NCBI RefSeq assembly: GCF_022788715.1
Contig: NZ_CP085169.1
Location: 124,001-188,000, forward strand
Length of the DNA stretch: 64,000 nt
DNA from: Sulfitobacter sp. DSM 110093
Lineage (GTDB): Bacteria > Pseudomonadota > Alphaproteobacteria > Rhodobacterales > Rhodobacteraceae
Direction of reading: 5' to 3'
The notes under the pieces are model-generated. The model did no database searches and was not told the origin of the DNA. It saw nothing but the letters and a program-made list of their open reading frames with translations. The translations under genes were made by a program, and so were the position numbers. Below are positions 3,686 to 38,387 of the stretch, in pieces (positions within the stretch are counted from its first letter, which is position 1; each line of letters opens with the position of its first letter).

Positions 3686-3747
3686 ATATATAGGCTAAAA
3701 CGCTTTGTTTTTATGGCGCTATCACGTGCATTGTGGTAGCCATGTGC

Positions 3748-6427: not shown

Positions 6428-7747
6428 ATGACATCCATCGCTCTTCGGTCACGAAAGTACTCTGCGCTCTCAGACTATCAACGCCGCATGCTGTCTGCAG
6501 CGCTTGATCCCGATACGCCTGCTGCATTTCATTTGGATCAAACAATTTCATGGGCCTTGCGGATCACCCCCGGAGTAAGCTTTCGTACTCTGCGCCGCGC
6601 ATTCGATGAGCTGGTTGAAAGGCATGATTCATTGCGGCTGCGCATGGTCGAGATCGGCAGCAGCTGGCATGCTGAGATCCTGCCCAAACATCCACTAGGA
6701 TTGATTGTCGAAGACCTAGGAGAGATGTCCGAAGAGAGACAAAGGGACGTGATCGCAGCCTATTGCGCGACACCGTTGACGGCGTTGTCTGAGGCGATGT
6801 TCGAGATGCAATTGTTGAAGTTCGGGGGCGCGGGAGATGTGATCCTGGCGCGGATCCATCATACGATCATTGATGGTTACAGTCTGGCTTTACTGTTTGA
6901 GGAGCTGCTTAAACATGTGTTGAACATGCCTGTCAGTGAGGCGCCTCTATCCCATGCGGATTTCATGGCCTACCGCAATAATCAGTTGGCGGAGAACGCG
7001 TCTATAAAGGATGACTTTTGGCGCGATGCCCTCTGCCCGCTGCCGCAGCGATTGAAACTTGGGCGCCAGGCAAAAGGACTCCCCCCTTTGTCGATGCGCA
7101 ATACAGGGCCAACAAATACACTAAAAAACTTTCTCAAGCCGCAGACGATTGCCCGGATCGATGCTTTGTCCAAAAGCACCGAAGTGTCAGCTTTTTGCCA
7201 CTTGCACGCGGCGTTTTCAGAGACCCTTTGTGCTCAAGCGGGACAAGATGCGGTGCTGGTTCATAGCATTGTGGGGCGTCGAGATGCAGCAATTGCGTCC
7301 TTCATCGGCGCTGAAATGCTTTTGTTTCCTTTGAAGTATTGCCAAGGATCAGGAGCGGCTTGGGTCTCCCAGCAAGTCGCGGCCTCATCTGAGATGGTGC
7401 CTACCAAAGCGTTCTCTAAGGAGACCAGGCTGGGGCGAGAGCTGCAGACTGAAGAGGGGGATTGGTACCGGTTTCTTGTGCATATCCCTACGCCAACAGG
7501 TCGTATTTCGTCTTCTCCATTTCGCAAGGTTTTTGAGGAGACCCTTGGGGGGAAGATCAGCTTCGGGTTTATCACCTTGGAAAGAATAGAACTGCCCAAG
7601 AGCACAGAGACCGATTTTGAAGCCCAACTTAATATCTATCCAACAAAAAGTGGCCCGCAAGCTTCTCTCGTTGCTGATGCTGCCGGCTGGAGCAATGATG
7701 ACCTTCAGCAACTGGCACAAGAGATAGAGGTGCGCGTGCAAGGTTAA
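6428..7747 (+). CDS. Stand-alone condensation-domain acyltransferase, copy 1
   Basis: This 439-aa protein covers one whole NRPS-type condensation domain with no carrier or adenylation domain. The catalytic motif HHTIIDG is at 144-150, with H145 as the expected general base and D149 structural. YSALSDYQRRMLSAALDPDT at the start matches the usual core 1 'ls..Q..ml'. Such free-standing enzymes (for example mycobacterial PapA proteins) transfer carrier-bound acyl chains to hydroxyl or amine acceptors. GGGGAGGA lies 12 nt before the ATG. It is a close paralogue of the next gene, and its proximity to the PKS suggests it uses PKS products (inference). Confidence 0.88.
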   Translation: MTSIALRSRKYSALSDYQRRMLSAALDPDTPAAFHLDQTISWALRITPGVSFRTLRRAFDELVERHDSLRLRMVEIGSSWHAEILPKHPLGLIVEDLGEMSEERQRDVIAAYCATPLTALSEAMFEMQLLKFGGAGDVILARIHHTIIDGYSLALLFEELLKHVLNMPVSEAPLSHADFMAYRNNQLAENASIKDDFWRDALCPLPQRLKLGRQAKGLPPLSMRNTGPTNTLKNFLKPQTIARIDALSKSTEVSAFCHLHAAFSETLCAQAGQDAVLVHSIVGRRDAAIASFIGAEMLLFPLKYCQGSGAAWVSQQVAASSEMVPTKAFSKETRLGRELQTEEGDWYRFLVHIPTPTGRISSSPFRKVFEETLGGKISFGFITLERIELPKSTETDFEAQLNIYPTKSGPQASLVADAAGWSNDDLQQLAQEIEVRVQG

Positions 7748-7984
7748 AATCCTGACCTGCGATAGTTTCGTAAGGGCTTCACAGAAGGCAAAGCACTTTC
7801 TTATATTTTCGAGGGATCAGCTTCAAAAGCGACGATCTTAACGCTTGGGTTTTGGTAGTGCACTTCTGACAAACTGGGACCAGTTCTCCTTTGTTGCGTG
7901 AAGCAACCTTACCATGCAATGTTTTCTCAATCATGAGATGCCACTATTGAGCGGGCGCACCTGTGGGGAAGACATAGAAAGCAT

Positions 7985-9310
7985 ATGACAGTTCCGACAC
8001 CTGCTCTGCGACAAGGAAAATATTTTCCCCTCTCTTACTACCAGCAGCGTATGTTGGCGGCGGCCCTTGATCCAGAAACCTCGGTGGGGTTTCATATCAA
8101 CCAAACGATTTCATGGGCCGTTCGTATCACGCCTGGTGTGAGTTCTCGCACCCTGCGCCGTGCCTTTGATCAACTTGTGCTCAGACATGATTCCTTGCGG
8201 CTTCGTTTTGTTGAGTTGGGTAATGTCTGGCGCGCCGAGATCCTGCCAAATCACCCGATCGGATTGATCATAGAAGAGTTAGGGGAGATGTCCGAAGCGG
8301 CGCAAAAGAAGGCCATTATGGCGCGCTGTGCAAAACCGCTGACGGCGCTTTCTGATCCAATGTTTGAAATGTGCCTGCTTAAGTTCGGCGGCGCGGGAGA
8401 TGTGATCTTGGTGCGGGTCCATCATGCGATCATCGACGGCTATAGCATTGTCCTGCTGCTTGAAGAGCTGCTCAAACACGCACTGAGCATGCCTGTCTCT
8501 GAAAGCCCTTTGTCTCACGGGGACTTCATTTCCCACCGCGGCAAACAAATACTGACGCGCGCAGAGGAAAAAGATGCATTTTGGAGAGAGGGGTTGTTCC
8601 CCTTGCCGGAGAAGTTGAACATTGGCCGCAAGGCGCAGGGTTTGCCAGATTTGTCCCCAAAAAATATAAGTAAAACCAACACGTTGAATGACGTTCTGGC
8701 GCCTCAGGTCTCCGCTCAGGTGGAGGTCTTAGTCAAAAATACGGGTGTTTCGGCTTTTTGTCATCTGCACGCGGCCTTTTCCGAAACGCTGTGCGCTCAG
8801 GCCGGCCAAGGGGCGGTATTGGTCCACAGCGTTGTGGGGCGGCGAGAAGCGGCGGTAGCTTCTTTTATTGGTGCCGAAATGCTCGAGTTCCCCTTGCGCT
8901 ACTCCTGTGGATCAGGGGCCGGCTGGGTGTCGGAACAGATATCAGCCTCTGCTGAGATGTTGCCGACCTCGGCCTTGGATGATGATACCCTCATGGGACA
9001 AGAAATCCGTGCTAAGGCGGATTGGATGCGGTTTCTCGTTCATATCCGAACCCCTACAGGGCGTTTCTCAACCTCTCCGTTTCGGAAAATCTTTGAAGAG
9101 GCTATGATTGGGAAAATATCTTTCGGCTTTTTAACGATGGAACGCATAGATCTGCCCAAAGAATCTGACAGCGGATTTGAGCTCCAAATGAACGTCACTT
9201 CCAGCCCCCAAGGGCCCCAAGCATCTCTGATTGGGAACGCAGCCTCTTGGGGGCAAGCTGATTTGGGACAATTGGCGCAGGAGATTGATGCCAGAGTGCA
9301 GCGCAACTGA
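7985..9310 (+). CDS. Stand-alone condensation-domain acyltransferase, copy 2
   Basis: This 441-aa tandem paralogue of the preceding gene shares long near-identical blocks, such as SAFCHLHAAFSETLCAQAGQ and VLVHS.VGRR.AA.ASFIGAEML. The motif HHAIIDG is at 146-152, so both copies keep the complete active site. No carrier protein or adenylation domain is attached. A 237-bp gap without a gene separates the copies, so copy 2 may have its own promoter. The two may act on different positions or acceptors of one product, as seen with paired PapA-type enzymes (inference). Confidence 0.88.
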   Translation: MTVPTPALRQGKYFPLSYYQQRMLAAALDPETSVGFHINQTISWAVRITPGVSSRTLRRAFDQLVLRHDSLRLRFVELGNVWRAEILPNHPIGLIIEELGEMSEAAQKKAIMARCAKPLTALSDPMFEMCLLKFGGAGDVILVRVHHAIIDGYSIVLLLEELLKHALSMPVSESPLSHGDFISHRGKQILTRAEEKDAFWREGLFPLPEKLNIGRKAQGLPDLSPKNISKTNTLNDVLAPQVSAQVEVLVKNTGVSAFCHLHAAFSETLCAQAGQGAVLVHSVVGRREAAVASFIGAEMLEFPLRYSCGSGAGWVSEQISASAEMLPTSALDDDTLMGQEIRAKADWMRFLVHIRTPTGRFSTSPFRKIFEEAMIGKISFGFLTMERIDLPKESDSGFELQMNVTSSPQGPQASLIGNAASWGQADLGQLAQEIDARVQRN

Positions 9311-9493
9311 CGAGAATGTTGGCCCTCCATTTATCAATATTTACCGTAGGGGCGTGCCCCCTAGGTTGTCTTGTCTCTTTCCAATCGTTACTTAAGAATG
9401 GCAAGGGAATGAGCAGGTTAGGCGGTTTGCGGTTGCGATGTGTGGTTGCCTCCCGAACCTCATGCAATACTTAGACGCGAACGCTGAACTCTT

Positions 9494-12400
9494 ATGAAAA
9501 CCGCTACAGTATCGCAACTCCTCGACGAACTCATCGCGCGGATATCCCCTCTGCCAGAACCATATCCGTGCTTTGTTGTCTTTGTGTCGGCGACGGATGG
9601 TGACAGCCGCGCACGGGTTAAAACGATCACGGCTTCAACCTTGGTTGAATTGCGCGAGCGGCTAGAGGAAAAGGCGTCCTTGCAGCTGCTTGGCGCGCGC
9701 CATGTGCGTTTGGATTGGGCGACTTCGGTGCAAGCGACGTCCTTTGCCAACTACAAAGCTGCGCTGCAGAAGGTAAAACGCAACTACAGCCGCAAAGGTA
9801 TGTCTCTAGATACGGGATTTACGCAGGCGATAACTGAAGGTGAGCTGAACGGCAGTGCCTTGTTTTATAAAGGCGCGCAAGTTCCGCATTGCGAGATGAA
9901 TCTCAATAACTTTGGAATCTACTGGAAAAGACGTTTTGGAAAAACGTTTGAAGCACCAGCGGATTCCGACACCGTTTATCTTTTTACATCTGATGGGCTG
10001 TTTCGTGATCTTGATCGCAACGAAATTGTTTGCCTCGAGCCTTCTGGGCTTAACGGTGGGCGGCGCATTTTCGACCTCATGGAGCCTGATAACCTTGATT
10101 TCCTGATACGTGAGAGCGCTGAATATCTTGCGGCCCAGGTGAACGAGAACGGCCTATTTCACTATGGCAGACATCCATGTTTTGATCGCTCGATTAACCA
10201 TTACAACACGTTGCGCCACGCCAGCAGTACCTATGCATTGTGCGAAGCCTATGAGTTGCTACAAAGCCATGATTTGCGTGAGGCCATTGATCGGTCTTTA
10301 AGGCAGATCGCGGAACACCTTGTCAAATACCGCAGTGGTCCGGGCGGTGCGTCGGCCTTTTTGATGGACAGGGGCAATGAGATAAAGCTGGGTGGTAATG
10401 CCGTTGCCATTTTGGCGTGCTGCAAGTTCTTCGAAGTGACAGGGGACAAGACTGTGCTCGAACTGGCGCATCGATTGGGCGCCGGAATCTTGTCGATGCA
10501 ACGAACGGATGGCAGCTTTTACCACATTCTGGATGCGGAAACCCTGACCCCGAAAGAGGATTTTCGCACAGTCTATTATGATGGGGAAGCCGCATTTGCG
10601 CTGATGCGCCTGTACGGTGCCACCGGCGATCAACGCTGGTTGGATGCGACGCGGCGTGCTGTCGACTACTTTATCGCCAAGGATTATTGGCAGTACAACG
10701 ATCACTGGCTGGCGTATTGTGTAAACGAGCTGTCTCGTCATTACACGGACCCAAAGTATATCGCATTTGGCGTCCGCAACGTCCGAGACTACTTGCCGTT
10801 TATCCGCGATAGGATCACTACCTTTCCTACCCTTCTGGAACTGTGCTGCGCCACCCGCCTGCTGTTGCAAAGATCGCTGCAGGATGCATCGCTCGTTCCG
10901 GTCATTGATGCGCTGGATCTTGATGCGTTTCGCGAGGCGATGGAACATAGGGCGCAGTATCTAACCAACGGGTTCTTTTTCCCCGAAGTCGCGATGTATT
11001 TCAGAAACCCGGCTTCAGTCACTGGAAGCTTCTTTATTCGCCACCACGGGTTCCGGGTGCGCATTGATGATGTTGAACACTACCTGTCCGGGTTGATCGC
11101 ATATCGCTCTTATCTGAAAGAACGCGACAGTTTTATCAGCCTTTGCGATCAGCAAAAGCGCCGGCGGGTCAGTACGACGGGTCGGGCGCGCTGGTCGACA
11201 GCAGATATAGCCGACCTTTTGCCGGGGTCAGAATGGCTGACTTCCCCAAGTGAAAAGCTGGAGCTGAATGGCGTTTCGATCTTCGCCCCAAGCTTTCGCG
11301 AGGATGATATCGTGTTTGTACGGCATGCAGATGACAGTTTTGGAATTCCCTATAAGGAACTAGAAAGAAAAGGGATTATTCCACGCCTCGCGATTGTGAG
11401 TAACAGCTGCGAAGTCTTTGGCAAAGCGGGCTCTGTCTTACGTGTTCCTGATATGCGCGCCGCGTTGATGGCCTTGGCAAAAGACGCGCGTAGATCACTC
11501 ACTGGGCCGATCGTCGGCGTAACGGGGAGCGCGGGAAAGACCACTGTCACGTCAATGATTGCGCATTGCCTTGGTGCAATCGGCAAAGTTCACGCCACCC
11601 GTTTTAGCGCGAATATGGCGCGCGGTCTTGCTTGGAACCTGTGTTGTGCGCCCACGGATACGCAATATTGTGTTCTGGAAATGGCCATCGGACAAATGCA
11701 AGAGAACAGCCGACTGGCGCGACCAGACATTGCGGTGTTCACCAATATTCATCCTGCACATTTGGCCTATCATACGAACACGGCCACTATCGCTCAAAAA
11801 AAGGCCCGCATTTTTTCAGAGATGCCCGACCAAGGCGTGGCGATCCTCAATCGAGATATGATCGAATATGAGATCGTAGAGGCTGCTGCAAAACTCAAGG
11901 GGTTGAAGATTGTAACTTACGGGTGGTCGGATGCGGCCAATATTTTTCCGACATCTTCAGCCGCATCGGCAACGCAAGTCATGCTGAACGTTTTTGGAGA
12001 ACGTCATATAGTCCCCATACAGGGCCCGGGGCGCTATGCGATTGATAATGTGATGGCTGTCGCCGCTGTCGCCAATGTACTGGGTCAACCGATTGGGCCT
12101 ATGCTTGAGCATTTGACGACCTTTACGAAAGACATCGGGCGCGGCCAGATTATCGAATGGGCCACAACGAAAGGCCCCGCAAAGATACTGGACCATTCTT
12201 ATAATGCAAACCCTGCATCGATGCGGGCAGCGTTGGATGAGATGTTTGCTATGCCATGCAGTGGGAAGCGAGTGGCCATTCTGGGGGATATGGCGGAACT
12301 TGGTGAGGACAGTCGGTCAGAACATGATGCACTTCTTAACCTACTCAAAAACAAACCTTTGGATGCCGTCTATCTTGTCGGTGACGAGCTTAAGGCGAGC

Positions 12401-12559
12401 CTTCCATTGGTTGGCAATGACCGTAGGTTCACCATTTTAGACCCGAAAAATCTTGAGAATATCCTGACTCAACAGGTCTCCACGGGTGACATTATCTTGG
12501 TGAAAGGCTCAAACAGCACAGGCCTTTTCCAGCGCCTTTCGAGATTCAGAAAATCTTAG
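9494..12559 (+). CDS. Fusion: six-hairpin glycosidase-like domain plus MurF-like ligase
   Basis: This 1021-aa protein has two recognisable parts. Residues about 1-190 are unclassified. Residues about 190-560 carry repeated helical hairpins with aromatic and acidic loops (NENGLFHYGRHPCFDRSINH, RTDGSFYHILDAETL, YYDGEAAFALMRLYGATGDQ), as in (alpha/alpha)6-barrel glycosidases and epimerases. Residues about 590-1021 are a Mur-type ligase: P-loop GVTGSAGKTTVTSM with K682, then FTNIHPAHLAYH, LDHSYNANPASMRAALDEMF and LGDMAELGEDSRSEH, all closest to MurF. MurF joins an amino acid or dipeptide to a carboxylate using ATP. This is not the housekeeping MurF because of the fusion and context. It probably forms an amide bond on a saccharide-linked product (inference). 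Confidence 0.82.
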   Translation: MKTATVSQLLDELIARISPLPEPYPCFVVFVSATDGDSRARVKTITASTLVELRERLEEKASLQLLGARHVRLDWATSVQATSFANYKAALQKVKRNYSRKGMSLDTGFTQAITEGELNGSALFYKGAQVPHCEMNLNNFGIYWKRRFGKTFEAPADSDTVYLFTSDGLFRDLDRNEIVCLEPSGLNGGRRIFDLMEPDNLDFLIRESAEYLAAQVNENGLFHYGRHPCFDRSINHYNTLRHASSTYALCEAYELLQSHDLREAIDRSLRQIAEHLVKYRSGPGGASAFLMDRGNEIKLGGNAVAILACCKFFEVTGDKTVLELAHRLGAGILSMQRTDGSFYHILDAETLTPKEDFRTVYYDGEAAFALMRLYGATGDQRWLDATRRAVDYFIAKDYWQYNDHWLAYCVNELSRHYTDPKYIAFGVRNVRDYLPFIRDRITTFPTLLELCCATRLLLQRSLQDASLVPVIDALDLDAFREAMEHRAQYLTNGFFFPEVAMYFRNPASVTGSFFIRHHGFRVRIDDVEHYLSGLIAYRSYLKERDSFISLCDQQKRRRVSTTGRARWSTADIADLLPGSEWLTSPSEKLELNGVSIFAPSFREDDIVFVRHADDSFGIPYKELERKGIIPRLAIVSNSCEVFGKAGSVLRVPDMRAALMALAKDARRSLTGPIVGVTGSAGKTTVTSMIAHCLGAIGKVHATRFSANMARGLAWNLCCAPTDTQYCVLEMAIGQMQENSRLARPDIAVFTNIHPAHLAYHTNTATIAQKKARIFSEMPDQGVAILNRDMIEYEIVEAAAKLKGLKIVTYGWSDAANIFPTSSAASATQVMLNVFGERHIVPIQGPGRYAIDNVMAVAAVANVLGQPIGPMLEHLTTFTKDIGRGQIIEWATTKGPAKILDHSYNANPASMRAALDEMFAMPCSGKRVAILGDMAELGEDSRSEHDALLNLLKNKPLDAVYLVGDELKASLPLVGNDRRFTILDPKNLENILTQQVSTGDIILVKGSNSTGLFQRLSRFRKS

Positions 12560-12714
12560 CCTGCCTTAATACTGGTTGCAGGAGGGGTAGGCGATCTTCA
12601 AAGTCAAAATGTTTGCCTGAAGCCATAGCCGCGACCGGTGCCATCTGATTCCGGCACGTATTTAGCCAGCAGGCGAATGAGAACTTTTCCCAACAGGCGT
12701 CTGGACGGCAAACA

Positions 12715-12737
12715 AGCCCTACATAGCATGTAGGGCT
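12715..12737. terminator. Bidirectional terminator between convergent genes
   Basis: AGCCCTACAT at 12715-12724 pairs perfectly with ATGTAGGGCT at 12728-12737 around a 3-nt loop. It lies between the convergent ends of the MurF-like fusion gene (12559) and the repeat protein (12763). Read on the minus strand, the stem is followed by TGTTTG. Confidence 0.75.
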
Positions 12738-12762
12738 TGTGATTGTTCGATTGATCTGTCGG

Positions 12763-15183: not shown

Positions 15184-15204
15184 GGGGGTAATTCCTCTCT
15201 TCAC

Positions 15205-16144
15205 CCCATAACAAGGGCGGCACAGTTAATATCAAAAGTATATAAAACATAACTTTGGTATGTTATCAATCGGATATATGTGCTTTTGACGGTAAAAGCT
15301 CCAGGTTAAGGTCCCAGCCTGACGAGTGATGTGTGCGACGTAAGATCAATCCGGCAAGTGGCAGCTGATTGGGTCAGATTGAGAAACAACGCGATATTGA
15401 TCCAGAGCGACTTATTGCAGACATCACTTAGGGATTCGGGCCAGTGCTAGCTTGTTGGGCGGGATTAAAATCCCGGACAAAGCGGATCGTACAGTCAGGA
15501 GAGATATCGGGCCGTGTTGACCTCGAAGGCGACGCGAGAGCAAACAGTAGATTTGTCCAGGAGGCAAACCATTGAAGCCGCTTCAAAGATCTGGTGGTGC
15601 TAACCGGGGTACAATGGCAGCGAGCCAATCAATGCTTGTGGATTTTTGCAGACCTACCTTGGTATGTTGATGCCACCGGTTCGTGATGACATCGTGAAGG
15701 TCGCTCTAATGTTAAAAGGCCTCATCGGCCTTCTTTGCTGGAGCTCAAAACCAGTTTCGAACCGCAGAGGCCCTTCAACAAGTGTATGTACTTTAATGAT
15801 CAGCTGAGATTGCCCAATGAACGCTGCTAGATCGCCCGCCCTTAGGACGATGTGAGCATGCACGTGGGGGAGGGTGGCAAAATCCAGGTCGTGTGATGCG
15901 GCCTAAACGGGCCTCTGCATACAGCCCTCATAGCGCCGTCCCGAGGGCCGGTTCAACTTTGGTCCGCGTGTCGGATCAGGGCAAGATGTCGACTTATTTG
16001 AGAAAAGTCTGGGTAAATTCTCAGTTTTGGTGGAGTATTTACAGAAAAAGCATCGCGATCACTGTCGGCCTAGCGGCCGTAGAACAAGTTCGAGGGGCGC
16101 AATATTCTCTGAGCGCCTCAGATCCGAACAGGGACAGAAGGTAG
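15205..16144. other. About 940-bp divergent intergenic region before the PKS
   Basis: It separates the minus-strand repeat protein from the plus-strand PKS and should hold both promoters. The first 80 bp above the repeat gene are AT-rich. Short frames at 15428-15628 and 15654-15863 on the minus strand have no recognisable motif or ribosome site, and the stretch may contain decayed coding DNA. No RNA gene is seen. Confidence 0.45.
15246..15264. promoter_or_regulatory. Inverted repeat in the promoter region of the repeat-protein gene
   Basis: AACATA at 15246-15251 and TATGTT at 15259-15264 form a dyad of regulator-site size in AT-rich DNA, 60-80 bp upstream of the minus-strand start at 15183. 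The binding protein is unknown. Confidence 0.35.
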
Positions 16145-22100: not shown

Positions 22101-23842
22101 AGTTGGCAAGTTATCTTGAGACCTCGGGAATGGCTGGGCTTTACACGGCAGAGGCCGAGGTTGCGCTTGGCACTCTTTTGCGAACCGGGCTGGGGCGGAT
22201 TTGCTATGGGCGTGGAGACTGGGAGAAAGCGGGTCGAACCAATATAGCGCTCTCACGTGCACCGCGGTTTGCCAGTATGATCAGTGGCAGAGGGCGGGAT
22301 GATAGTGATCTGGCCAAACGCTTGTCTTCGCTCACGGGCGATGCGCTTGTCGCTGAGATCGCAGGTTTCGTGACAGCCACCTTGTCCGATCTGCTTAAGG
22401 TTAGCCTGAGCCCGGACGATCTGGATATGCCCATGAGCGAAGCGGGGTTGGACTCACTCTCCTCATTTGAGCTCAAAATGCGGTTGGAGACAGAACTCGG
22501 CGTCTCCATCATGGCGTCGCATTTCCTCAAAGCCCCCACGGTGGGAGAGCTCTCAAAGGTGTTGGCGCATGAGTTTGAAGCCCATCAAGCGCGCCTCGCA
22601 GACAATACAGAAGATGGAAAGGATGAAGGGCAGGGGGCATCTGCAGCCATTTACCAAAAACGTGCATTTACAGATGGGCAAGCCGGTATGATTGCTACAA
22701 CGCTGGCGCGGTTCAGCTCAGCGTCAACACGCCGTGCGTTTGAACATCGCTTGGTGTTTGATGCACCTGAAGGCGTAGAAAGCGGGGATCTGCAAAAAGC
22801 AATTTATGCTACATTCATGCAATTCCCTTTGATGGGTTTGACATGCGATATCCCGCGGGGCTCTAAACCTAACTTTGCTCTGGGCGAAGCCCCTCAGCTG
22901 ACCAGCGGACATTTGAAACCTGAAGAACTTCTGGATGTGGCGCGAGGCGAATTGCTGCGGTTTGGCCAGATCGCCAAAGAATCCGGACTGCAGGTACAGA
23001 TTGCGATGCATGCCGCTTTGGGCGACGCGCAGGCATTAGAGTTTCTAAAAGACGCACTTTGGGCTGAGCTTTGTGCCGCGCCCACTGCGGTAATTCCTGG
23101 CAAGTTTGATGCCTCAGCCCATCTTAGCACGCTTGCTTATCATGCAGACACGCCCCAAGGGCTTCGTGATCGATCCTTTTGGAGCCATGTTTTACGCAAA
23201 GTACCGGGCCCAGTGGCCTTTAGTAACCGCGGGCGTGCTTTGGGGCCTGAAGCCATGGGTCGAGATCATGGAGCTGCACAGGTAAAGGACGGTCATCTAA
23301 AGAACACCTTGTCGGAGGCGGATATGTTGCTGGCCTACGCAGGTGCTCTGCAAAAGGCCAAAAACGGGGCGCAAGCCGTTGTGATCGCAAGAGATGTATC
23401 AGCTCGTCCGTCGGGCATGGCCGAAGGTTTTGGCCCCTTTACGGCCACTTTGCCGATCATCGTTCCAGTCAATGAACGCAATGAGTGGGAGGCCGCAGAC
23501 TTCAAGCGCATTCTGTCTGCGAGCAATGATCACATCGCTTTTGATGTATTCAACGCAGCAGAGGAATTCGACGGGCGACTTCAGGCCTCAGGAGCACGTC
23601 TGAACCAGATCGGCTTCGCCTTGCAAAACCAATTGCCACCTTCACGCGACGGCGCCACATACAACGATGTACGGCTAGATGTGGCGGCCAACGAAAAGGG
23701 GACATCCTATCAATTTACCTTTGATAGCGCGGTGGTCACAGAGGTAGAGCAGCAAGCTATTATCGCTGCGTTTGAAGCACAACTGGAAGGCATGCTGGTT
23801 TCTCCGAACCGTGCGCCGGTAGATGCCGTGGTTGCAAGCTAG
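16145..23842 (+). CDS. Highly reducing type I polyketide synthase with C-terminal condensation-like domain
   Basis: This is a 2565-aa single-module synthase. Domain order, with key residues: KS about 15-440 (VDTACSSS, C189; EAHGTGTPIGDPIEAG; NVGHLESAAG). AT about 555-850 (GHSVGE, S652; GAWHS in the substrate loop). DH about 915-1200 (H950 in HRYVGEALFP; D1116 in HPALLD). A structural non-catalytic KR half about 1240-1440. ER about 1455-1775 (VGLNFRD; HVATGGVGLAALQIAQ). KR about 1795-1990 (GGTRG; Y1946 in QSNYVAANGF). ACP about 2070-2140 (GLDSL, S2104). Residues about 2190-2560 are a condensation-like domain whose motif reads MHAALGD (H2289). All reducing domains look active, so the product should be a saturated acyl chain built iteratively or by extending a starter. 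No thioesterase is present. AAGG lies just before the ATGs at 16145 and 16154. Confidence 0.93.
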   Translation: MRSMPFAANDSTKPHNSTKIAIVGMAFRFPGAEDNPDSLWQMLCEQGTGIVEIPNERFSTEKFYDSNPETLGKSYTKWAGILPQIDQFDPKFFGLAPREAASMDPQQRLVLQAVYGALENAHIKMDDVVSQRTGVFVGVSQSDYKTIREMNTADEEKYAGTGYAMSIVANRVSHRLNLTGPSVSVDTACSSSLVALDEGVRHLQAGSCDMAFVSGVNVIAHPGAFVAFSKAGMLSPTGQLSAFDKTANGYVRGEGVGALLLKPLDAAMRDGNRIHAVIEATAVNQDGQTGTMTAPSPEAQIDVIEQLFAKSGRVPSEVGYAEAHGTGTPIGDPIEAGSIGQAIGRRIPDRKLYIGSIKPNVGHLESAAGMAGIIKAVLSLQKGEIPPNRRFDDPNPAIPLDALNLEVPRNITPFPAVGGERRAIVNSFGFGGTNASTLIASAPSTAVKVQKDTAAALVSTASPTDEPVLIPLTAASPKALSGAARNLLKARKNGPLAEVSLSRLAASLADGPAMYSYRAVILCKTEQDLLSGLEALSAEDLPDMLPEHVHIGQVKHAPKLVFTYSGQGNQSWDMVRDLMAHAPIFRAAIEDFDAAYAAVSGWSVLAEMAKDKETSNIDKTWVTQPALVAVQYGLSALWRHWGVTPNIVLGHSVGEVAATIECGATSLEDAVRYLSKRSTILDHITSMGAMAAVGLPPEDVEAMLPDNGLIDIAGRNGPGATTISGQKAAVEDFVAHFEATYPDTFIRLLKIDGAWHSYQLEEAEDWLRHEVGEISWSQPKIDFLSTVTGKLETRLDLDYCWQNLRQSVRYMDAIEAAIEMGATTFLEIGPHTTLKPLTASTALACGAAIDVVSSMSHKFPDLDYFAASAAELFVHGVELDWRALYGPGDSSISLPSYAWDTDRYWADSEDSSYQLFTCADHPLLGLRTRGPADVWVQDINISSPSFLKDHRYVGEALFPAAGYVDVMLAAGQVLFPDKVLELENVGFHKALFLPPQGTVQLQTVFVSDRGRIEVSSRLRNSSEEWVLRASAVLRPVDVAPPGKLQKLHQEDAKLRTPDISAFYEGLENAAAVTYGPAFATIQNLVVDSDRGVGVIAAHESCRATLDKYVAHPALLDGCMQTLSGQLWVDSDVAAEHQLALLPTGIARVRCYGRLPADVTANISIGEGISFEQGRGKIDIAGADGTILLSVSGLRAKEMPQASAVQEDVQTPPDFIVEELDLVDLDLSLKETPGRWLVLGEQTAQTVGLIEALQKQGADVTRLGHDTLGEDITDALADLLMPAASKDDATLAIEGVVFAWPLSAPDLAEDCTPAEIYDAVRGPVQTLLEMGVALHDIRGLHALPRIIIATTNVRPTAESCLTPSSVAGASVMATMRTLSTELPELNFRHIDVSKGHSDMEARLASAILCPMEETEIALHGDAIYAARLKVRARDDLPQRQLTIGAEDAHNFKVTMPQPGVIDRLDLFECPRHPLGADEVRIKVRAVGLNFRDIMAVTALLPEDAEAEPAWQNLGLEFSGDIVEVGEKVTAFALGDRVMGMGRNCLQRFLAISAEGLIPMHDALDYDAAVTIPSAFATAHYALKEVGRLSEGDKVLIHVATGGVGLAALQIAQAAGAEVFATAGNDDKRALLRERGVAHVMNSRSLDYADEIMALTQGTGVDLILNSLPGSNIDKGLDILAPYGRFLEIGKRDVYADHAVGMKAMRRNQSFNIIDLAAMGTERPELLASQMHAVMSDIREGRLLPLPTTNFPLSKVRTAFRYMSQAQHVGKVVVTFDEETFVVREDRDKPITFRKNASYLITGGTRGFTLAMADWMSRQGAGRLLLASRSGRLAEEDKPLLEAMRARGTDVREQVLDTTDAIAVHDAVLTAAGDQDKPLAGILHGAAVIKDTLITMMTPEVLEAVLGPKVIGAWALHQAEQALDEPLDFLISFSSISQTFGAMGQSNYVAANGFLSALADYRSARGNQGGTIDWGAIADTGFVARDEQLASYLETSGMAGLYTAEAEVALGTLLRTGLGRICYGRGDWEKAGRTNIALSRAPRFASMISGRGRDDSDLAKRLSSLTGDALVAEIAGFVTATLSDLLKVSLSPDDLDMPMSEAGLDSLSSFELKMRLETELGVSIMASHFLKAPTVGELSKVLAHEFEAHQARLADNTEDGKDEGQGASAAIYQKRAFTDGQAGMIATTLARFSSASTRRAFEHRLVFDAPEGVESGDLQKAIYATFMQFPLMGLTCDIPRGSKPNFALGEAPQLTSGHLKPEELLDVARGELLRFGQIAKESGLQVQIAMHAALGDAQALEFLKDALWAELCAAPTAVIPGKFDASAHLSTLAYHADTPQGLRDRSFWSHVLRKVPGPVAFSNRGRALGPEAMGRDHGAAQVKDGHLKNTLSEADMLLAYAGALQKAKNGAQAVVIARDVSARPSGMAEGFGPFTATLPIIVPVNERNEWEAADFKRILSASNDHIAFDVFNAAEEFDGRLQASGARLNQIGFALQNQLPPSRDGATYNDVRLDVAANEKGTSYQFTFDSAVVTEVEQQAIIAAFEAQLEGMLVSPNRAPVDAVVAS

Positions 23843-23899
23843 CAAGCATGAAAATACCTATAAAAATGCCCTCTGCAGCTATGAAGACGGCCGGCACTC

Positions 23900-26200
23900 A
23901 TGCGTGTTAAGCACAAGGCGCATGAGGGTCGCTTAAGCACGCGTCGGATCGCACATTATATCGTCACCCATGATGTGATGTTTTTCATGCTGGGAGCTGT
24001 GATCTTACTGATCGCCAGCCTCGGCCTGCTACGCTTAAGCTTTTCCAGTGATAACCGTGATTTTTTTGGTGCAAGCAACCCAGATATAAACGCTGTTCTC
24101 CAACTCGAGGATACCTATTCAAAATCTGACACGCTGATTTTCGCCGTCGTGGGCGAGGAAGATATATGCACACCGCAAGGTTTGACGCGGCTGAGAGCCT
24201 TCACCGAAGAAGCTTGGTTGCTACCTGATGTGTTGCGGGTGGATTCTGTAGCCAATTTTAACCACAGCTATGCAGATGGCGATGATATCATCATCGAGCC
24301 ATTGCTCTCCGAAGATACCGATTTGGGCCCGGAAGATGCGCAACGAGTCAAAGACATCGCATTGACGTCGACTGAGTTGGTGCATCGCTTGGTCGCGCCT
24401 GATTGCAATGCTTTTGGCATCTTTATTGACCTTGTCCCCTCTGAGAATGCGTCAATCGACCGATTGGACATGGCAGAACGTGCGCGCGCGCTAAAAGCCG
24501 ACTGGCAGGCACGCGCCCCTGACTTGAATATACATGTCAGTGGCGGGGTCATTGGGGGTGTCTCCATCAATGAGGCGGCGCAACGGGATATGCGCCAACT
24601 GGTGCCCCTGTCCTTTGCGGTGGTGACGCTTTTGATGTTGCTGGGATTAGGCACGATCAGCGGATGGCTGGCAACAACCCTTGTGACCTTAGGCGGCACG
24701 CTCGCGACCTTAGGCTTTGCTGGTTGGATGGGCATCGCGCTTATCCCTGCTACGGCAACCAGCCCATTGGCCGTCATGGTGTTGATTACGGCGTCTTGTG
24801 TGCATGTGGTCTTGGGATGGGCGCGCCGCATGGCACAAAATCAAGATCGCTTGCGAGCGACTTATGAGGCGGTGGAAGAAAACCTCACCGCAGTGTCAGT
24901 CACCAATATTACGACCGCCATCGGGTTCTTATGTTTGAACTTCTCTGAATCGCCTCCCCTGGCCCAAATGGGAACTATCGTGGCCTTTGGCATTGTTGTT
25001 GGCTGGCTGCTCACAGGAATGTTCTTACCGTTGATTTTGCGGCGGGCCCCGGCTTTGTGTTTCAAACCAGTACATATTCCTGGGCATCAATTGGAAAAGC
25101 TTGCGTCTTTTGCCCTGCACAAGCGTGGATTGGTGAGCCTATTTGGCCTCGCGACGGTGCTTGCTTTACTCGGCCTCTCCCAGATCCGGTTCAACGATAG
25201 CGCGCTTCGATACTTCGATGAGAGTTTTAGCTTCCGTACGGATAATGATGCCATTGAGGAGCATCTAACTGGTATGGAGAGCGTGCATTTTTCCTTTCAA
25301 GCGCCGGAAGGTCACAGTGTTTTCTCTCCAGAGTTTTTGAGCCGTGTCGACAATTTTACAAACTGGGTGCGCACGCAAGATAAAGTCCTTTTTGTAGGCA
25401 CGGTAACAGACGTCTTGAAACGACTTAACCAAACCTTGGATGGGGGGGCGCAAGACAGCTATCAATTAGCTCCGACACAGCAGGGCAATGCCCAAGCTAT
25501 GATGCTATACGAATTGTCGCTGCCCGTTGGGCAAGACATGAACCAGATGATGAATATTGACCGGAGTAAAACCCGTCTGACGGTGGTCCTACGCGGGGCG
25601 GATGGTCAAGATATTGCTCAATTTGCGCAGCGTTCTGAGGCTTGGTTGCGCGAGAATGAGCCCCAAATCGCGACTGATGCCGTAGGGGTCGGGGTCGCGT
25701 TCTCCAAGCTCACACAGCGCAACAATCAGGCAATGATCTATGGTATGCTAACAGTACTGGTGTTGGTCTCGGCCTTGATGACGTTGTCATTGCGAAATCT
25801 ACGCTTGGGGCTGATCAGTCTTGTGCCAAATGTTGTGCCTGCCATTCTCGCTTTCGGCCTGTGGGGGTGGCTGATCGGCGATGTCAATCTGGGGTCTACT
25901 GTGGTGACAACCATGACCTTTGGCATTGTTGTGGATGATACGGTGCACATCATGATACATTACAACCGTCATCGTCGCCGTGGTTTGGACCGCGAAGCCG
26001 CCTTACGTCTGACGTTTCGGACCGTAGGTACGGCTCTCATGGTCACGTCTGTCGCAATCAGTAGCGGGTTCTTTATCATGACCCAGAGCGGTTTTTTGAT
26101 CAACCAGCACCTTGGAGGCTTAACGACCATTGTTATTGTGCTGGCGCTCTTCACAGACCTAATCTTGTTACCTGCCGTTCTCGAAAGGACAAAGCTATGA
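23900..26200 (+). CDS. MMPL/RND-family lipid exporter
   Basis: This 766-aa inner-membrane protein has two repeated halves, each with one leading transmembrane helix, a periplasmic loop and a five-helix bundle (first bundle about 225-390, second about 600-766). GIVVDDTVHIMIHYNRHRRR in the second half matches the conserved proton-relay helix region of MMPL/RND lipid transporters, and LAVMVLITASCVHVVLGWAR is its equivalent in the first half. Relatives (MmpL, HpnN) move polyketide-derived lipids or hopanoids out of the inner membrane. It starts 57 nt after the PKS and overlaps the next gene by 4 nt, a strong sign that it exports the PKS product. Confidence 0.9.
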   Translation: MRVKHKAHEGRLSTRRIAHYIVTHDVMFFMLGAVILLIASLGLLRLSFSSDNRDFFGASNPDINAVLQLEDTYSKSDTLIFAVVGEEDICTPQGLTRLRAFTEEAWLLPDVLRVDSVANFNHSYADGDDIIIEPLLSEDTDLGPEDAQRVKDIALTSTELVHRLVAPDCNAFGIFIDLVPSENASIDRLDMAERARALKADWQARAPDLNIHVSGGVIGGVSINEAAQRDMRQLVPLSFAVVTLLMLLGLGTISGWLATTLVTLGGTLATLGFAGWMGIALIPATATSPLAVMVLITASCVHVVLGWARRMAQNQDRLRATYEAVEENLTAVSVTNITTAIGFLCLNFSESPPLAQMGTIVAFGIVVGWLLTGMFLPLILRRAPALCFKPVHIPGHQLEKLASFALHKRGLVSLFGLATVLALLGLSQIRFNDSALRYFDESFSFRTDNDAIEEHLTGMESVHFSFQAPEGHSVFSPEFLSRVDNFTNWVRTQDKVLFVGTVTDVLKRLNQTLDGGAQDSYQLAPTQQGNAQAMMLYELSLPVGQDMNQMMNIDRSKTRLTVVLRGADGQDIAQFAQRSEAWLRENEPQIATDAVGVGVAFSKLTQRNNQAMIYGMLTVLVLVSALMTLSLRNLRLGLISLVPNVVPAILAFGLWGWLIGDVNLGSTVVTTMTFGIVVDDTVHIMIHYNRHRRRGLDREAALRLTFRTVGTALMVTSVAISSGFFIMTQSGFLINQHLGGLTTIVIVLALFTDLILLPAVLERTKL

Positions 26201-26988
26201 TATTCAAGAAATTGCTTATACCGCTTGTGATTATCTGCTCGAGCGCTGCTTCGGGATTTGCACAAGACGCGCAAAAAGGACAACAGATTGCACAGCGTGC
26301 AGAAGCTGCCGGAAACGGCTATGGTGACTTTGCTGTGCAAGGGGATATGACCTTGCGCACGGCAGGGGGCGCCACCAGTAAACGCCGCTTTGCAGCAAAG
26401 AACTTAGAGCTAAACGGCGGTCGTGCCACACGCTACATGATGGTGTTTGATTGGCCGGGTGATATCCGGGGAACAGCTTTGCTTACCCACTCATTCGACA
26501 CCAAACAAGACAGCCAATGGCTGTACCTCCCTGCCGCAAGCCGGGTGAAGAAAATATCTGGGAGCGGACGTTCGGGCTCATTCGTCGGCAGTGAGTTTTC
26601 CTATGAAGATATGGTCGAGCAAGATGCATCCAGCTACCGGCATGTGTGGCTAAGGGATGAAGCCTGCCCCAATGGCGCGGGCACCTGCCATCTCTTGCAA
26701 CGGACCCCCGTCTACAAATCAGGATACTCTCAGCAAGCAGTATGGATAGATACAAATGCTCTGCGATATCAGCTGATTCAGTACTACAATCGCCAAGGGC
26801 AGCTGAATAAAACGCTCACCATGAAAAATTATAAGAAATACAAAGGCCGTTTTTGGCGCCCGTCACAAATGACGATGGTCAACCACCTGACTGGGAAGAG
26901 TACAACGTTGAACTGGAAGAACTACCGGTTCAATATAGGGCTTCAACCCAATCAACTGACCCGGGAGGCTATGACCCGCGCGCAGTGA
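26197..26988 (+). CDS. LolA-like outer-membrane lipoprotein-sorting protein
   Basis: This 263-aa protein has a signal peptide (MIFKKLLIPLVIICSSAASG, then FAQ). The mature domain is of the LolA-like type often encoded beside RND/MMPL exporters: DWPGDIRGTALLTHSF, QWLYLPAASRVKKISGSGRS, then GSFVGSEFSYEDM and a late KYKGRFWRPSQMTMVNHLTG. Such proteins form an open beta-barrel half that shields lipids in the periplasm. The start ATG overlaps the MMPL stop (ATGA, 26197-26200), so the two are translationally coupled. It most likely carries the exported lipid from MMPL toward the outer membrane. Confidence 0.88.
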   Translation: MIFKKLLIPLVIICSSAASGFAQDAQKGQQIAQRAEAAGNGYGDFAVQGDMTLRTAGGATSKRRFAAKNLELNGGRATRYMMVFDWPGDIRGTALLTHSFDTKQDSQWLYLPAASRVKKISGSGRSGSFVGSEFSYEDMVEQDASSYRHVWLRDEACPNGAGTCHLLQRTPVYKSGYSQQAVWIDTNALRYQLIQYYNRQGQLNKTLTMKNYKKYKGRFWRPSQMTMVNHLTGKSTTLNWKNYRFNIGLQPNQLTREAMTRAQ

Positions 26989-27108
26989 AACGGCTTTTTT
27001 AAATGCTTCTGCCTCCTGGGTGATATGTCCCGGGCAGCGCTCAAAGGTTTGTTTGCAAAGCATCACGCGAGTAGATACGGCGACGCAGCAGCGCAGTGGA
27101 AGGCTAAT

Positions 27109-28092
27109 ATGAATAAAGTGCTCGTAACCGGCGGCGCCGGATATATTGGCTCGCATGCGTGTAAGGCATTGAAAGCTGCGGGCTTCACACCTGTTACTTT
27201 TGATAATCTCGTAACCGGGTGGCGCGACGCGGTGAAATTCGGCCCGTTTGAGCAAGGTGATCTACTGGACCGAGTGCGACTGGATGAGGTGTTCGCCAAA
27301 CATCAGCCGATTGCGGTGATGCATTTTGCAGCACTTAGCCAAGTGGGCGAGAGCATGAGCCAGCCCGGCCTCTACTGGCGCAATAACGTCGGCGGATCAC
27401 TGACGTTGATTGAAGCAGCCGTAGCGGCGGGCTGTAAGCAGTTTGTTTTTTCCTCCACTTGTGCGACCTATGGCGATCAAGACAATGTCATCTTAGACGA
27501 AAACAGTGCCCAATACCCGATCAACGCCTATGGCGCATCGAAACGTGCGATTGAAGATATCCTACGTGATTTTGAAGCTGCGCATGAGCTGCAGCATGTG
27601 ATCTTCCGCTATTTCAACGTGGCCGGGGCCGACCCAGAAAGCGAAGTGGGCGAGTTCCACCAGCCAGAGACACATTTAATCCCACTGATGCTCGATGCTA
27701 TCGCCGGAAAACGTTCGGCGCTGACGATCTATGGTGATGACTATGCCACGCCCGACGGCACCTGCATTCGTGACTATGTGCATGTCTGCGATCTGGTTGA
27801 CGCACATGTCTTGGGCCTGAAATGGCTCCAATCCGACAAAGGCAGCCGGGTGTTCAATCTTGGTACCGGCAGCGGTTTTTCGGTGCGCGAGGTCCTAGAT
27901 CACAGTCGTGCAGTAACCAATCAAACGGTCCCCCATCACATTGGCGCGCGCCGCCCGGGCGATTGCACCAAGCTGGTGTCAGGCTCTTTCCGCGCGGTCG
28001 AGGAACTGGGTTGGCAGCCCAAGCGCTCAACGCTGGAACAGATGATTTCCGACGCTTGGCGGTGGCATCAAACCGGCCACTACAGCGGGTGA
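27109..28092 (+). CDS. galE: UDP-glucose 4-epimerase
   Basis: This 327-aa short-chain dehydrogenase-type epimerase interconverts UDP-glucose and UDP-galactose. It has NAD motif TGGAGYIGSH at 7-16, FSSTCATYG before the active site, catalytic pair Y141 and K145 (YGASK), and GTGSGFSVREVLDH near the end. The frame is open upstream to 27025, but the ATG at 27109 is preceded by GGAAGG and gives the standard GalE N-terminus MNKVLVTGG. It follows the LolA-like gene by 120 nt. It may supply galactose for a glycolipid head group or for the downstream glycan genes. Confidence 0.94.
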   Translation: MNKVLVTGGAGYIGSHACKALKAAGFTPVTFDNLVTGWRDAVKFGPFEQGDLLDRVRLDEVFAKHQPIAVMHFAALSQVGESMSQPGLYWRNNVGGSLTLIEAAVAAGCKQFVFSSTCATYGDQDNVILDENSAQYPINAYGASKRAIEDILRDFEAAHELQHVIFRYFNVAGADPESEVGEFHQPETHLIPLMLDAIAGKRSALTIYGDDYATPDGTCIRDYVHVCDLVDAHVLGLKWLQSDKGSRVFNLGTGSGFSVREVLDHSRAVTNQTVPHHIGARRPGDCTKLVSGSFRAVEELGWQPKRSTLEQMISDAWRWHQTGHYSG

Positions 28093-28463
28093 CCGTAGCC
28101 GCCCTCGAGCATGTCTGCGCGAAGGTCGGGAGAAACAGTGTGCAACAGAGTGCCTTCAAGCCCGCGGTTTTGATCTGGTCACGGTCTTCGAACAACATCT
28201 GGCCCGCGGCATGTATGAGGCTGCAAACGAGGCCGGATACATGTCAGCACCCAGTGACGCGCCCAAATAAGGCCTGGAGATACCTCTTGTGCCAAGGGCG
28301 GATATACAACATGCCCCCCTTCAGGTCGGCCCCAACAAGCCAATAAGCATCGCTTTTGCGTGTTCCTAAACACACAAGCTCAATAATTGCGACCTAGGCA
28401 CCCTCCAATTTGTTTTCAAATTGAATAGAACCGTTCATCAAGTGTGAGACCGGGCATTCTTGG
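28093..28463. other. 370-bp gap with a small hairpin
   Basis: No convincing gene is seen. CAATTTG at 28406-28412 and CAAATTG at 28417-28423 form a perfect 7-bp dyad with a TTTT centre about 40 bp before the next gene, a possible regulator site or small terminator. The rest is featureless. Confidence 0.4.
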
Positions 28464-29840
28464 ATGGGCACTTCGATGCGCAGAATACTTAAACCCTGGA
28501 AAGTTGGGATCTGCGGCCTTGGCGTTGCGCTGGCTAGCTCTGCAACTGCGCAAAACATTACGTTTGAAGGGGAGGCGGGCCTGATCGCTCGTAGCTTCCT
28601 GCATGACGGAAAATTGCCCGAACAAAGTACGCAGGGGACTCACACAATTGCCAGCCTCCGGCTTGCTGCGTCCGGAGATCTCTCTTTCGGGCGATGGGTG
28701 ACCGAGCTGAACGGCAGTAACGATCTGCGCCTTGGCACCCAGTCATTTGATGTAACTAAAGCCTATGTCGAAGGGCGCGCGGGCAGGCTTCGGTACCTGA
28801 TTGGCAGCGATGTCGTACACTGGGGCGTGACTGAAGCAGCAAACCCGGTCAACATTATCAATCAGTACGGCTCGTTTTTCGAGACAGACGAAGAGCAGCG
28901 GTTAGGCCAACCGATGGCCGTCTTATCTTTTGACACGCAAACCTATGGGTCATTTAGCTTCTTCGCACTCGCGGGCTTTCGAGAGCAGGACTATGCGACC
29001 GCCTCTGAGCGGCTGCGCTTTAACGCGGTTCCTGACGATAATCGCACCATGTTTGAAGACAAAGATGACCTAGATATCGCCCTGCGTCACACCCATACGT
29101 TCAGTTTTGCGGAAGGGTCATTGGACTATGGTCTTTCGTTTTTCTCAGGTACGGACCGGCAACCAGTCTATTTACCTGGCTGCTCATTTCGCTCCTCCAC
29201 TGTTTCTGAAGCAACCTGCACGGCGATCAATGCAGATATTCGCGGCGCATATGAAAATTTAGGGCAGGGGAGTGACGACCCTTTGGCGCAGCAGGTCTTT
29301 GACGCGGCCAATCCTGCTACGCAAGGTTTTTTAGCTTCCGGTGATAGTGTCGGTTCAATTGCTTATTATCAAAACATTCACCAAGTCGGGCTTGAGCTGG
29401 CTTATACTACTGGTGACTGGCAGCTGAAGTTTGAAGGCGCGCAGAAATTCACCGATCGGGAGGATTACTTTTCCGGAGTGGTCGGCGCAGAATACAGCTT
29501 TGGAGATGCATTTCGGACAGGAGGCGACCTACGCGCGGCCGCCGAGTATATCTACGATGGGCGGTCCAGCCGGCAACCCCAGACGTTCTTAGACAACGAT
29601 TTGTTCGCTACAATACGGTATGATTTTAATGACTTCAGGGATACAACGATTGCTATGAGCGGGCTCTATGATGTCCATACAGATAGCAACGTCCTAAACG
29701 TAAACCTGTCGTTCCGTTTGTCCGATAGCGCCCGCATGGAGCTCTCTTCGACCTTTGTCGATGCCGATGACCCAGAAGATCCATTGACGTCTCTGGATGG
29801 GGATGACTTCTTTGAGCTGGGCGTTAAGTACTTTTTCTAA
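28464..29840 (+). CDS. Outer-membrane beta-barrel protein of the export locus
   Basis: This 458-aa protein has a signal peptide (KVGICGLGVALASSATAQ) and ends with alternating aromatic strands and a terminal phenylalanine (FFELGVKYFF), the signature recognised by BamA for barrel insertion. The interior repeats amphipathic strands (YGSFSFFALAGFREQDY, LQLKFEGAQKFTDRED-like stretches). It resembles the barrel proteins found with RND/MMPL plus LolA-like pairs, but no family name is assigned. Starts at 28464 or 28476 are possible; neither has a strong ribosome site. It is a plausible outer-membrane receiver or pore for the MMPL substrate. Confidence 0.75.
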   Translation: MGTSMRRILKPWKVGICGLGVALASSATAQNITFEGEAGLIARSFLHDGKLPEQSTQGTHTIASLRLAASGDLSFGRWVTELNGSNDLRLGTQSFDVTKAYVEGRAGRLRYLIGSDVVHWGVTEAANPVNIINQYGSFFETDEEQRLGQPMAVLSFDTQTYGSFSFFALAGFREQDYATASERLRFNAVPDDNRTMFEDKDDLDIALRHTHTFSFAEGSLDYGLSFFSGTDRQPVYLPGCSFRSSTVSEATCTAINADIRGAYENLGQGSDDPLAQQVFDAANPATQGFLASGDSVGSIAYYQNIHQVGLELAYTTGDWQLKFEGAQKFTDREDYFSGVVGAEYSFGDAFRTGGDLRAAAEYIYDGRSSRQPQTFLDNDLFATIRYDFNDFRDTTIAMSGLYDVHTDSNVLNVNLSFRLSDSARMELSSTFVDADDPEDPLTSLDGDDFFELGVKYFF

Positions 29841-34803: not shown

Positions 34804-34876
34804 ATGGTTTTCGGGCTCGGAGCTTCTGGAGGGTTTTGCGCGCTATAGCTAAATGCCTTTACCCAAGAAAACGACG

Positions 34877-36673: not shown

Positions 36674-36841
36674 GAAAGTTGCGTTTTCTGACAAGTACGG
36701 GCTCTCTATAAGAGAGTGAGGATAAAGTGTATCCCTCAACTGCCCGCCAGACCGCTGACCGCCGCAGGGGCGGGGCTTCTCCTAGAGATCGCTTGCAATG
36801 AAGCAAAGCGCCTAGGCCTCTCGACTGAGGCCATCGTTGCG

Positions 36842-38275: not shown

Positions 38276-38387
38276 GGCTAGGATAGAATGGTGGCTCTAT
38301 TGGCAGACTGCCTGCCTCTTAGCAAGCAGTGCCTAAGGCCCTCCTGCGGCTGGATAGGGTAAAATAAAGCCAGAGTTGAGGGCAAAT

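Follow-up and report, generated by a model that had tools for sequence, protein, structure and literature searches.

What does the gene set around one large polyketide synthase (PKS) make, and where does its product go? The question is raised by a locus at positions 6428-29840 of a 64,000-nucleotide stretch of DNA (the window, at its full length) from Sulfitobacter sp. DSM 110093. A first-pass annotation had placed here a complete reducing PKS, two stand-alone condensation acyltransferases, a MurF-like fusion enzyme, an MMPL exporter, a LolA-like carrier and an outer-membrane barrel; open frames and Pfam matches were found at those places. The locus probably (at a rough probability of 0.6) encodes, on a plasmid, a pathway for making a polyketide-type acyl lipid and delivering it to the outer membrane; we infer the product, the acceptor and the direction of transport. 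The case is carried by gene fusions in relatives, by 13 loci, and by the association of MMPL and barrel genes in 388 genomes that lack the C-terminal tail of this PKS. The core genes in the window are as follows.

6428-7747, forward strand: condensation-domain acyltransferase 1, with HHTIIDG (Pfam PF00668, 1.7e-22)
7985-9310, forward strand: condensation-domain acyltransferase 2, with HHAIIDG (Pfam PF00668, 2e-26)
16145-23842, forward strand: type I PKS, KS-AT-DH-ER-KR-ACP plus a degenerate condensation-like C-terminal domain (Pfam, PDB match, motifs)
23900-26200, forward strand: MMPL (RND superfamily) inner-membrane transporter (PF03176, 4.4e-22)
26197-26988, forward strand: LolA-like periplasmic carrier (PF17131, LolA_like, 9.7e-52)
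28464-29840, forward strand: probable outer-membrane beta-barrel (homologue in 13 of 13 complete loci; alignment)

Window genes at 5989-31005 were scanned with Pfam. The PKS is a single chain of 2565 aa in which ketosynthase (KS), acyltransferase (AT), dehydratase (DH), enoyl reductase (ER), ketoreductase (KR) and acyl carrier protein (ACP) domains follow in this order. Catalytic motifs were checked by pattern; the KS cysteine, AT serine, DH histidine, ER and KR cofactor loops, KR YxxxN and ACP serine are all present, which bears out the description of a complete reducing PKS. In the PKSs of relatives some of these patterns fail, the DH pattern in most of them; a DH glycine is replaced by serine in two aligned relatives. 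Among solved structures the closest match is mycobacterial mycocerosic acid synthase (MAS, 9d2y), which aligns with residues 18-2149, from KS to ACP (1.1e-281); by this match the PKS is MAS-like in architecture. The AT carries GAWH, and relatives mostly have TAWH (11 sequences); in modular methylmalonyl ATs the motif is YASH, and in others HAFH. In malonyl ATs the third motif position is aromatic. Since GAWH and TAWH are nearer to this rule, a malonyl extender appears slightly favoured over methylmalonyl.

No thioesterase or methyltransferase was matched in the PKS by Pfam. After the ACP the chain continues for about 415 aa (about 22577-23842), a tail absent from the first-pass annotation. It has no Pfam family and resembles condensation domains weakly (best 1.2e-4), and the second (catalytic) histidine is lost in 11 of 13 aligned sequences (alignment A6, which omits Sulfitobacter dubius). 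The tail was rejected as an active condensation domain because of this loss and this weak kinship. In Roseitalea the PKS is 3087 aa long and has a true Condensation domain (121 bits) C-terminal to the degenerate tail; this fusion ties the PKS step to the condensation step.

The two stand-alone condensation proteins of the window are 65% identical to each other, and both contain HHxxxDG. HHxxxD is conserved in every stand-alone condensation protein from the 13 loci (15 of 15) and in the fused domain of Roseitalea. Their best solved matches are C domains of nonribosomal peptide synthetases (NRPS), and phthiocerol dimycocerosyl transferase (8s6l, PapA5-type) is matched at E 0.003. Since NRPS C domains outrank the mycobacterial chain, the label PapA-like would refer to the role of these proteins and not to a demonstrated descent. 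An NRPS reading of the condensation proteins was also rejected, as no Condensation-family protein was found in the genome at E <= 0.001 beyond these two and their second copy.

Only 57 nt separate the PKS stop from the MMPL start, and the LolA-like gene overlaps the MMPL gene by 4 nt; both the tight linkage and the overlap had been noted correctly. The MMPL protein matches PF03176 in two stretches (78.9 bits against a cut-off of 20.5) and is 39-47% identical to eight orthologues. The LolA-like protein scores 175.7 bits, above the cut-off, over positions 3-184 of the 184-position profile. Four genomes without this PKS have MMPL frames of 1061-1103 aa, and both of the long frames scanned (L162, L165) are MMPL-LolA_like fusions; this ties the pump to the carrier. 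The barrel is the weakest label of the set. The protein has no Pfam family at 0.01, and 11 homologues searched against Pfam at E up to 1 gave a single match, to capsule-assembly Wzi (0.22). The alignment (A7, which omits S. dubius and also L151, where an in-frame stop precedes the start) shows by eye a signal-like N-terminus and short amphipathic strands; the terminal residue is aromatic in 10 of 11 homologues, and the eleventh is cut by a contig end. Such features suggest that the product of 28464-29840 is probably an outer-membrane barrel.

A full-length counterpart of the PKS, about 44% identical, is found in 3 of 144 other genomes (G022, G035 and G049, all of the same genus); nearly all of the remainder show partial matches of the kind given by PKS, synthase or reductase genes. 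One full-length copy was seen in G035. With a profile of the tail, 6 of 394 sampled family genomes are matched, the window's own included. Among the best 80 of 483 matches in a scan of contigs for the PKS, complete cases are Pseudooceanicola antarcticus, two Rhodobacteraceae assemblies, G049, Sulfitobacter mediterraneus DSM 12244 and Roseitalea, and contig ends truncate those of Oceanicola sp. S124 and Aestuariivita boseongensis. Thirteen distinct loci with a whole neighbourhood were surveyed, with matches above 60 bits retained: the window, S. dubius, G022, S. mediterraneus (G035), G049, P. antarcticus, isolate 3-368 (G444), the metagenome-assembled genome P03SWT1, G495, G394, G181, G356 and Roseitalea. 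Two loci whose contigs end in the PKS (L068, L083) were omitted, and identical ones were counted once (L148 = L066, L067 = G049, L070 = G035). G394, in which the PKS begins at a contig end and the downstream side is complete, was counted.

PKS, MMPL, LolA-like and barrel genes are present in all 13 loci. So is a condensation protein, of which the window, S. dubius and G049 have two; in Roseitalea it forms part of the PKS chain, and in G394 its gene is reversed and lies past the barrel, at a distance of about 1 kb. In G022, G035 and G049 the barrel gene is found upstream, on the opposite strand; in the remaining loci it is 3' of the LolA-like gene, with galE in between in the window and S. dubius and one other gene in between in Roseitalea. 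This Roseitalea gene (L072:22530-23285, 251 aa, between LolA and barrel) resembles a phosphopantetheinyl transferase (PPTase) by eye and has no Pfam match at 0.001. These data support the PKS, PapA-like condensation enzyme, MMPL, LolA-like carrier and barrel as a conserved unit, and for this core the proposed co-occurrence in relatives is confirmed. Since the loci were picked for having the PKS, 13 of 13 describes conservation around the PKS; independent tests come from sampled genomes without the PKS and from 72 other PKS loci.

Nine of the 13 loci also contain a sulfotransferase gene, overlooked at first pass, between the condensation gene or PKS and MMPL; the window, S. dubius, G049 and Roseitalea lack it. 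In the G022 protein a Sulfotransfer_3 domain is recognised (6e-36), and of the two motifs sought RSGT is found in 9 of 9 and RDP in 7 of 9. The window genome encodes one PF13469 protein, on contig C1, and none in the window set. The glycolipid or lipoamide product proposed earlier gains no backing from these loci, as there is no glycosyltransferase among the five core genes and the commoner extra enzyme is the sulfotransferase.

Omega (the ratio of nonsynonymous to synonymous substitution rates) was compared with S. dubius and ranges from 0.035 to 0.20 across PKS, condensation, MurF, MMPL, LolA, GalE and barrel genes; these genes are under purifying selection. Values are 0.110 for the PKS (0.068 from KS to ACP, 0.353 in the tail), 0.143 and 0.151 for condensation proteins 1 and 2, 0.081 for MMPL, 0.040 for LolA and 0.035 for the barrel. 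Two further genes are uninformative on selection: DUF2147 has no synonymous change, and LuxR (0.898) has four changes.

Does the transport trio of MMPL, LolA-like carrier and barrel belong to this PKS alone? In the 394-genome sample, the barrel profile matches 26 genomes and the MMPL profile 29 (24 of them above 500 bits), with both in 23. All six genomes with the PKS tail belong to these 23, which is little evidence because the profiles include some of their proteins. Co-occurrence tests used the 24 of 29 MMPL genomes; matches at or below 300 bits (G323, G479, G207, G210, G075) were excluded. Among the 388 genomes without the PKS tail, MMPL is found in 18, the barrel in 20 and both in 17 (p about 1e-25, shared ancestry ignored); without G250, which is too fragmented to judge, both are found in 16 (p 2e-24). 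The two genes lie at most 10 kb apart on one contig in 18 of the 23 genomes, 12 of which lack the PKS tail. Co-occurrence of the PKS with MMPL and barrel (p 3e-8 and 5e-8; 4e-7 and 7e-7 minus the window genome) was discarded as evidence: some of the six PKS genomes supplied loci from which the two profiles were built, and so are matched by construction. The 388-genome test is free of this flaw.

The 72 other PKS loci (flanks up to 10 kb) contain all three trio members once, in L106 of the gammaproteobacterium Pseudomaricurvus alcaniphilus. There, L106:8663-26246 encodes a PPTase, a PKS, an NRPS with condensation, adenylation, peptidyl carrier protein and thioesterase domains (C-A-PCP-TE), MMPL, a LolA-like protein, a barrel relative and a thioesterase. 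A sulfotransferase match is found in 2 of the 72. Neighbours of the trio vary; in L161 they include a squalene/phytoene synthase and an oxygenase-like protein. As the trio is also found in genomes lacking the PKS, and once next to a gammaproteobacterial PKS-NRPS, it looks like a general transport module for several hydrophobic products which has been acquired by megasynthases. The exporter set first assigned to this pathway is thus kept in 13 of 13 loci but is not specific to it. In five of the other loci (L078, L075, L103, L105 and L099, planctomycete and other) a weak condensation match lies directly 3' of the PKS, perhaps another PKS-acyltransferase pairing.

The pathway would operate as follows. 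The ACP would be activated by a PPTase encoded elsewhere in the genome, which has two PPTase-family genes. The MAS-like PKS would work iteratively, running full reduction cycles on a starter acyl chain to give a long, mainly saturated chain. As the PKS has no thioesterase, this chain would be handed to the stand-alone condensation enzymes and transferred to a hydroxyl or amine acceptor; the degenerate condensation-like domain at the PKS C-terminus perhaps docks these enzymes. Head-group tailoring would be variable: the sulfotransferase would act in most relatives, and in the S. dubius branch this part might fall to the MurF-like ligase and GalE. MMPL would then extract the lipid at the inner membrane, the LolA-like protein would carry it across the periplasm, and the barrel would receive it in the outer membrane.

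Several observations weigh against this pathway. In the window, a reverse-strand gene and the MurF fusion separate the condensation genes from the PKS. Excerpts of PMC6304351 discuss inward alkane passage for TOL_3187 and TOL_3188, two consecutively numbered Thalassolituus proteins. The PKS tail evolves faster than the rest, and any function given to it is conjecture. A weak condensation match (46-66 bits) is found in 15 of the 72 other PKS loci, so a PKS with a condensation gene is not special by itself. Finally, 17 of the 23 genomes having both MMPL and barrel have no PKS-tail match; because the trio is found without the PKS, it is tied to the PKS product by neighbourhood only.

Secondary metabolites are typically sporadic in distribution and plasmid-borne. 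The spread seen here (6 of 394 family genomes) and the plasmid location would fit a secreted small natural product, such as a signal, antibiotic or surfactant, for which the trio is the exit from the cell; the trio also adjoins a PKS-NRPS with a thioesterase in Pseudomaricurvus. This is unlikely, since a long hydrophobic chain is what the full set of reducing domains and the MAS-like architecture suggest, the PKS has no thioesterase domain, and a LolA-type carrier would be expected where a molecule cannot cross the periplasm unaided. Alternatively, the trio could be a route for uptake or maintenance of hydrophobic compounds that stands beside the PKS by chance. MMPL and barrel occur without the PKS in many genera, and in Thalassolituus related kinds of protein (likened by description) rose on n-C28 alkane, with uptake discussed in the same excerpts of PMC6304351. 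Such a route is nevertheless improbable, given that the trio stands beside the PKS in 13 of 13 loci and beside 1 of 72 others; moreover, mycobacterial MmpL proteins export lipids or siderophores, according to parts of PMC4183827 and PMC8277102.

Two further explanations are each very improbable. The genes could be unrelated neighbours gathered on a plasmid, some of them decaying: there is an IS66-type transposase upstream, an IS256 element between the S. dubius condensation genes and a large identical block on two plasmids, and MurF and GalE are not conserved with the set. Against this stand a gene order largely conserved across genera, fusions in relatives and core-gene omega values well under 1. 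The MurF-like fusion could also be the key step, giving a lipoamide or lipopeptide. The ligase directly follows the condensation genes in the window and S. dubius, and its omega is 0.204; it was not found, however, in the stretches fetched for the remaining 11 complete loci, nor in 393 of the 394 sampled genomes at E <= 1e-60. A lipid pathway with delivery to the outer membrane remains the preferred explanation.

The closest known parts list is mycobacterial, where the sulfolipid PKS is Pks2. Sections of PMC4183827 describe acyltrehalose and sulfolipid pathways that join Pks, PapA and MmpL proteins, with Stf0 added for sulfolipid. Like these pathways (Stf0, PapA, Pks, MmpL8/MmpL10), the present one has a MAS-like PKS, a stand-alone condensation-fold acyltransferase and an MMPL protein, and 9 of the 13 loci, not including the window, share the sulfotransferase of the sulfolipid pathway. 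It differs in its Gram-negative host, LolA-like carrier, probable barrel and extra condensation-like PKS domain, and in having no AMP-ligase among the window genes scanned. The sulfotransferase-bearing version thus resembles the sulfolipid pathway in its parts list, plus Gram-negative outer-membrane delivery. A bolder proposal, to be taken as tentative, is that the set is a Gram-negative counterpart of the sulfolipid machinery, in which PKS, condensation acyltransferase and sulfotransferase might make a sulfated (in the window, differently capped) polyketide lipid, and MMPL, LolA-like carrier and a dedicated barrel might form a complete inner-to-outer lipid conduit recruited independently by different megasynthases.

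Other systems share fewer features. Clusters for aryl polyenes, xanthomonadin and flexirubin give fatty-acid-like products in Gram-negatives, encode a LolA-type protein and an exporter of MMPL type, and use type II synthase proteins; here a single type I PKS stands in place of separate synthase proteins. The fungal highly reducing PKS LovB carries a condensation domain. It is likewise a reducing PKS with a condensation-type domain after the ACP (chain 7cpx matched query residues 18-1002); unlike LovB, the window PKS has an ER, no methyltransferase Pfam match and a tail whose catalytic histidine is lost in 11 of 13. The hopanoid transporter HpnN is a Gram-negative RND lipid transporter, and a review assigns hopanoid exporters to the HAE-3 RND family (PMC8277102, in excerpt). 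The HAE3 and HpnN NCBIfam profiles match the MMPL protein, but far under their cut-offs (127 against 351.9 bits and 90.4 against 751.85 bits). In Thalassolituus the MMPL-LolA protein TOL_3187 and the porin TOL_3188 rose together on n-C28 alkane; as described, they resemble the trio in bringing MMPL, LolA-like and porin-type proteins together, and differ in the context of growth on long-chain alkanes, with no PKS reported with them in the excerpts of PMC6304351.

No paper on a Gram-negative set of PKS, condensation, sulfotransferase, MMPL, LolA and barrel genes was found in searches of open-licence PMC papers; PMC10221251, in the sections available, mentions T1PKS and T1PKS-NRPS-like clusters of Sulfitobacter but no such set. 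If the pathway is as proposed, some Roseobacters carry an envelope lipid class undescribed in the open-licence papers searched, made from mycobacterial-type parts in culturable marine bacteria. They would also offer a natural complete set of pump, periplasmic carrier and outer-membrane barrel for studying how MMPL proteins hand lipids over to the outer membrane, a step still described as unclear in mycobacteria too (PMC4183827, in part).

Two further enzymes were found next to this set in the window and S. dubius and in no other locus.

9494-12559, forward strand: fusion of an N-terminal part of about 640 aa without Pfam family to a C-terminal MurF-like ligase (Pfam Mur_ligase_M and Mur_ligase_C)
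27025-28092, forward strand: GalE, UDP-glucose 4-epimerase (TIGR01179, 411.6 bits against a cut-off of 262.3)

Both were rejected as core parts for this reason; with the BapA-like gene described below, they are found in 2 of the 13 loci in the fetched stretches. The earlier set therefore holds in all 13 for PKS, condensation, MMPL, LolA-like and barrel genes and fails for MurF. The fusion (1021 aa, omega 0.204) scores 259 bits with TIGR01143, under the cut-off of 288.6, and the chromosomal murF is separate (348 bits). At E <= 1e-60 the fusion was found only in the window's own genome among the 394 sampled. In its N-terminal half (window 9494-11400), residues 243-393 match a LanM lanthipeptide synthetase profile at 1.3e-6, far under the cut-off; as a guess, this region is perhaps an alpha/alpha toroid. 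GalE has an omega of 0.053, and its annotated start in S. dubius corresponds to window 27109. Between the condensation genes and the PKS is the large BapA-like gene (12763-15204, reverse strand), absent from the first-pass annotation. It encodes two repeat regions, a long one of Asp-Ala and a glycine-rich one, and the repeat DNA has matches in Agrobacterium genes whose annotation is large adhesin.

The window corresponds to C2 179071-243070 in a genome of 4.34 Mb. The entire window is present a second time on C3 at 100% identity, within a 175-kb block common to C2 87845-262797 and C3 32757-207727 (99.951% identical, with differences confined to the first 1.6 kb). C2 (55.3% G+C) and C3 (54.9%) agree in length and G+C with plasmids pDSM110093_a and pDSM110093_b in Table 1 of PMC9025767, so that a near-identical block on two plasmids of one strain gives two complete copies of the locus. 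The second copy may be an assembly error; against this, the same table gives the plasmids as separate replicons at 1.1 copies each. By term counts, 'duplicat' and 'polyketide' are absent from the main text of that paper. Plasmid pDSM109990_a of S. dubius DSM 109990 has a syntenic copy (91% of the 24.9-kb query covered, 96.6% identity), in which IS256 sits between the two condensation genes; both strains were isolated from sediment near Roscoff, as a passage in PMC9025767 states. In the window, IS66-family transposase genes lie upstream of the locus at 2967-5361, and glycosyltransferases and an ABC transporter lie beyond it at 33379-41654.

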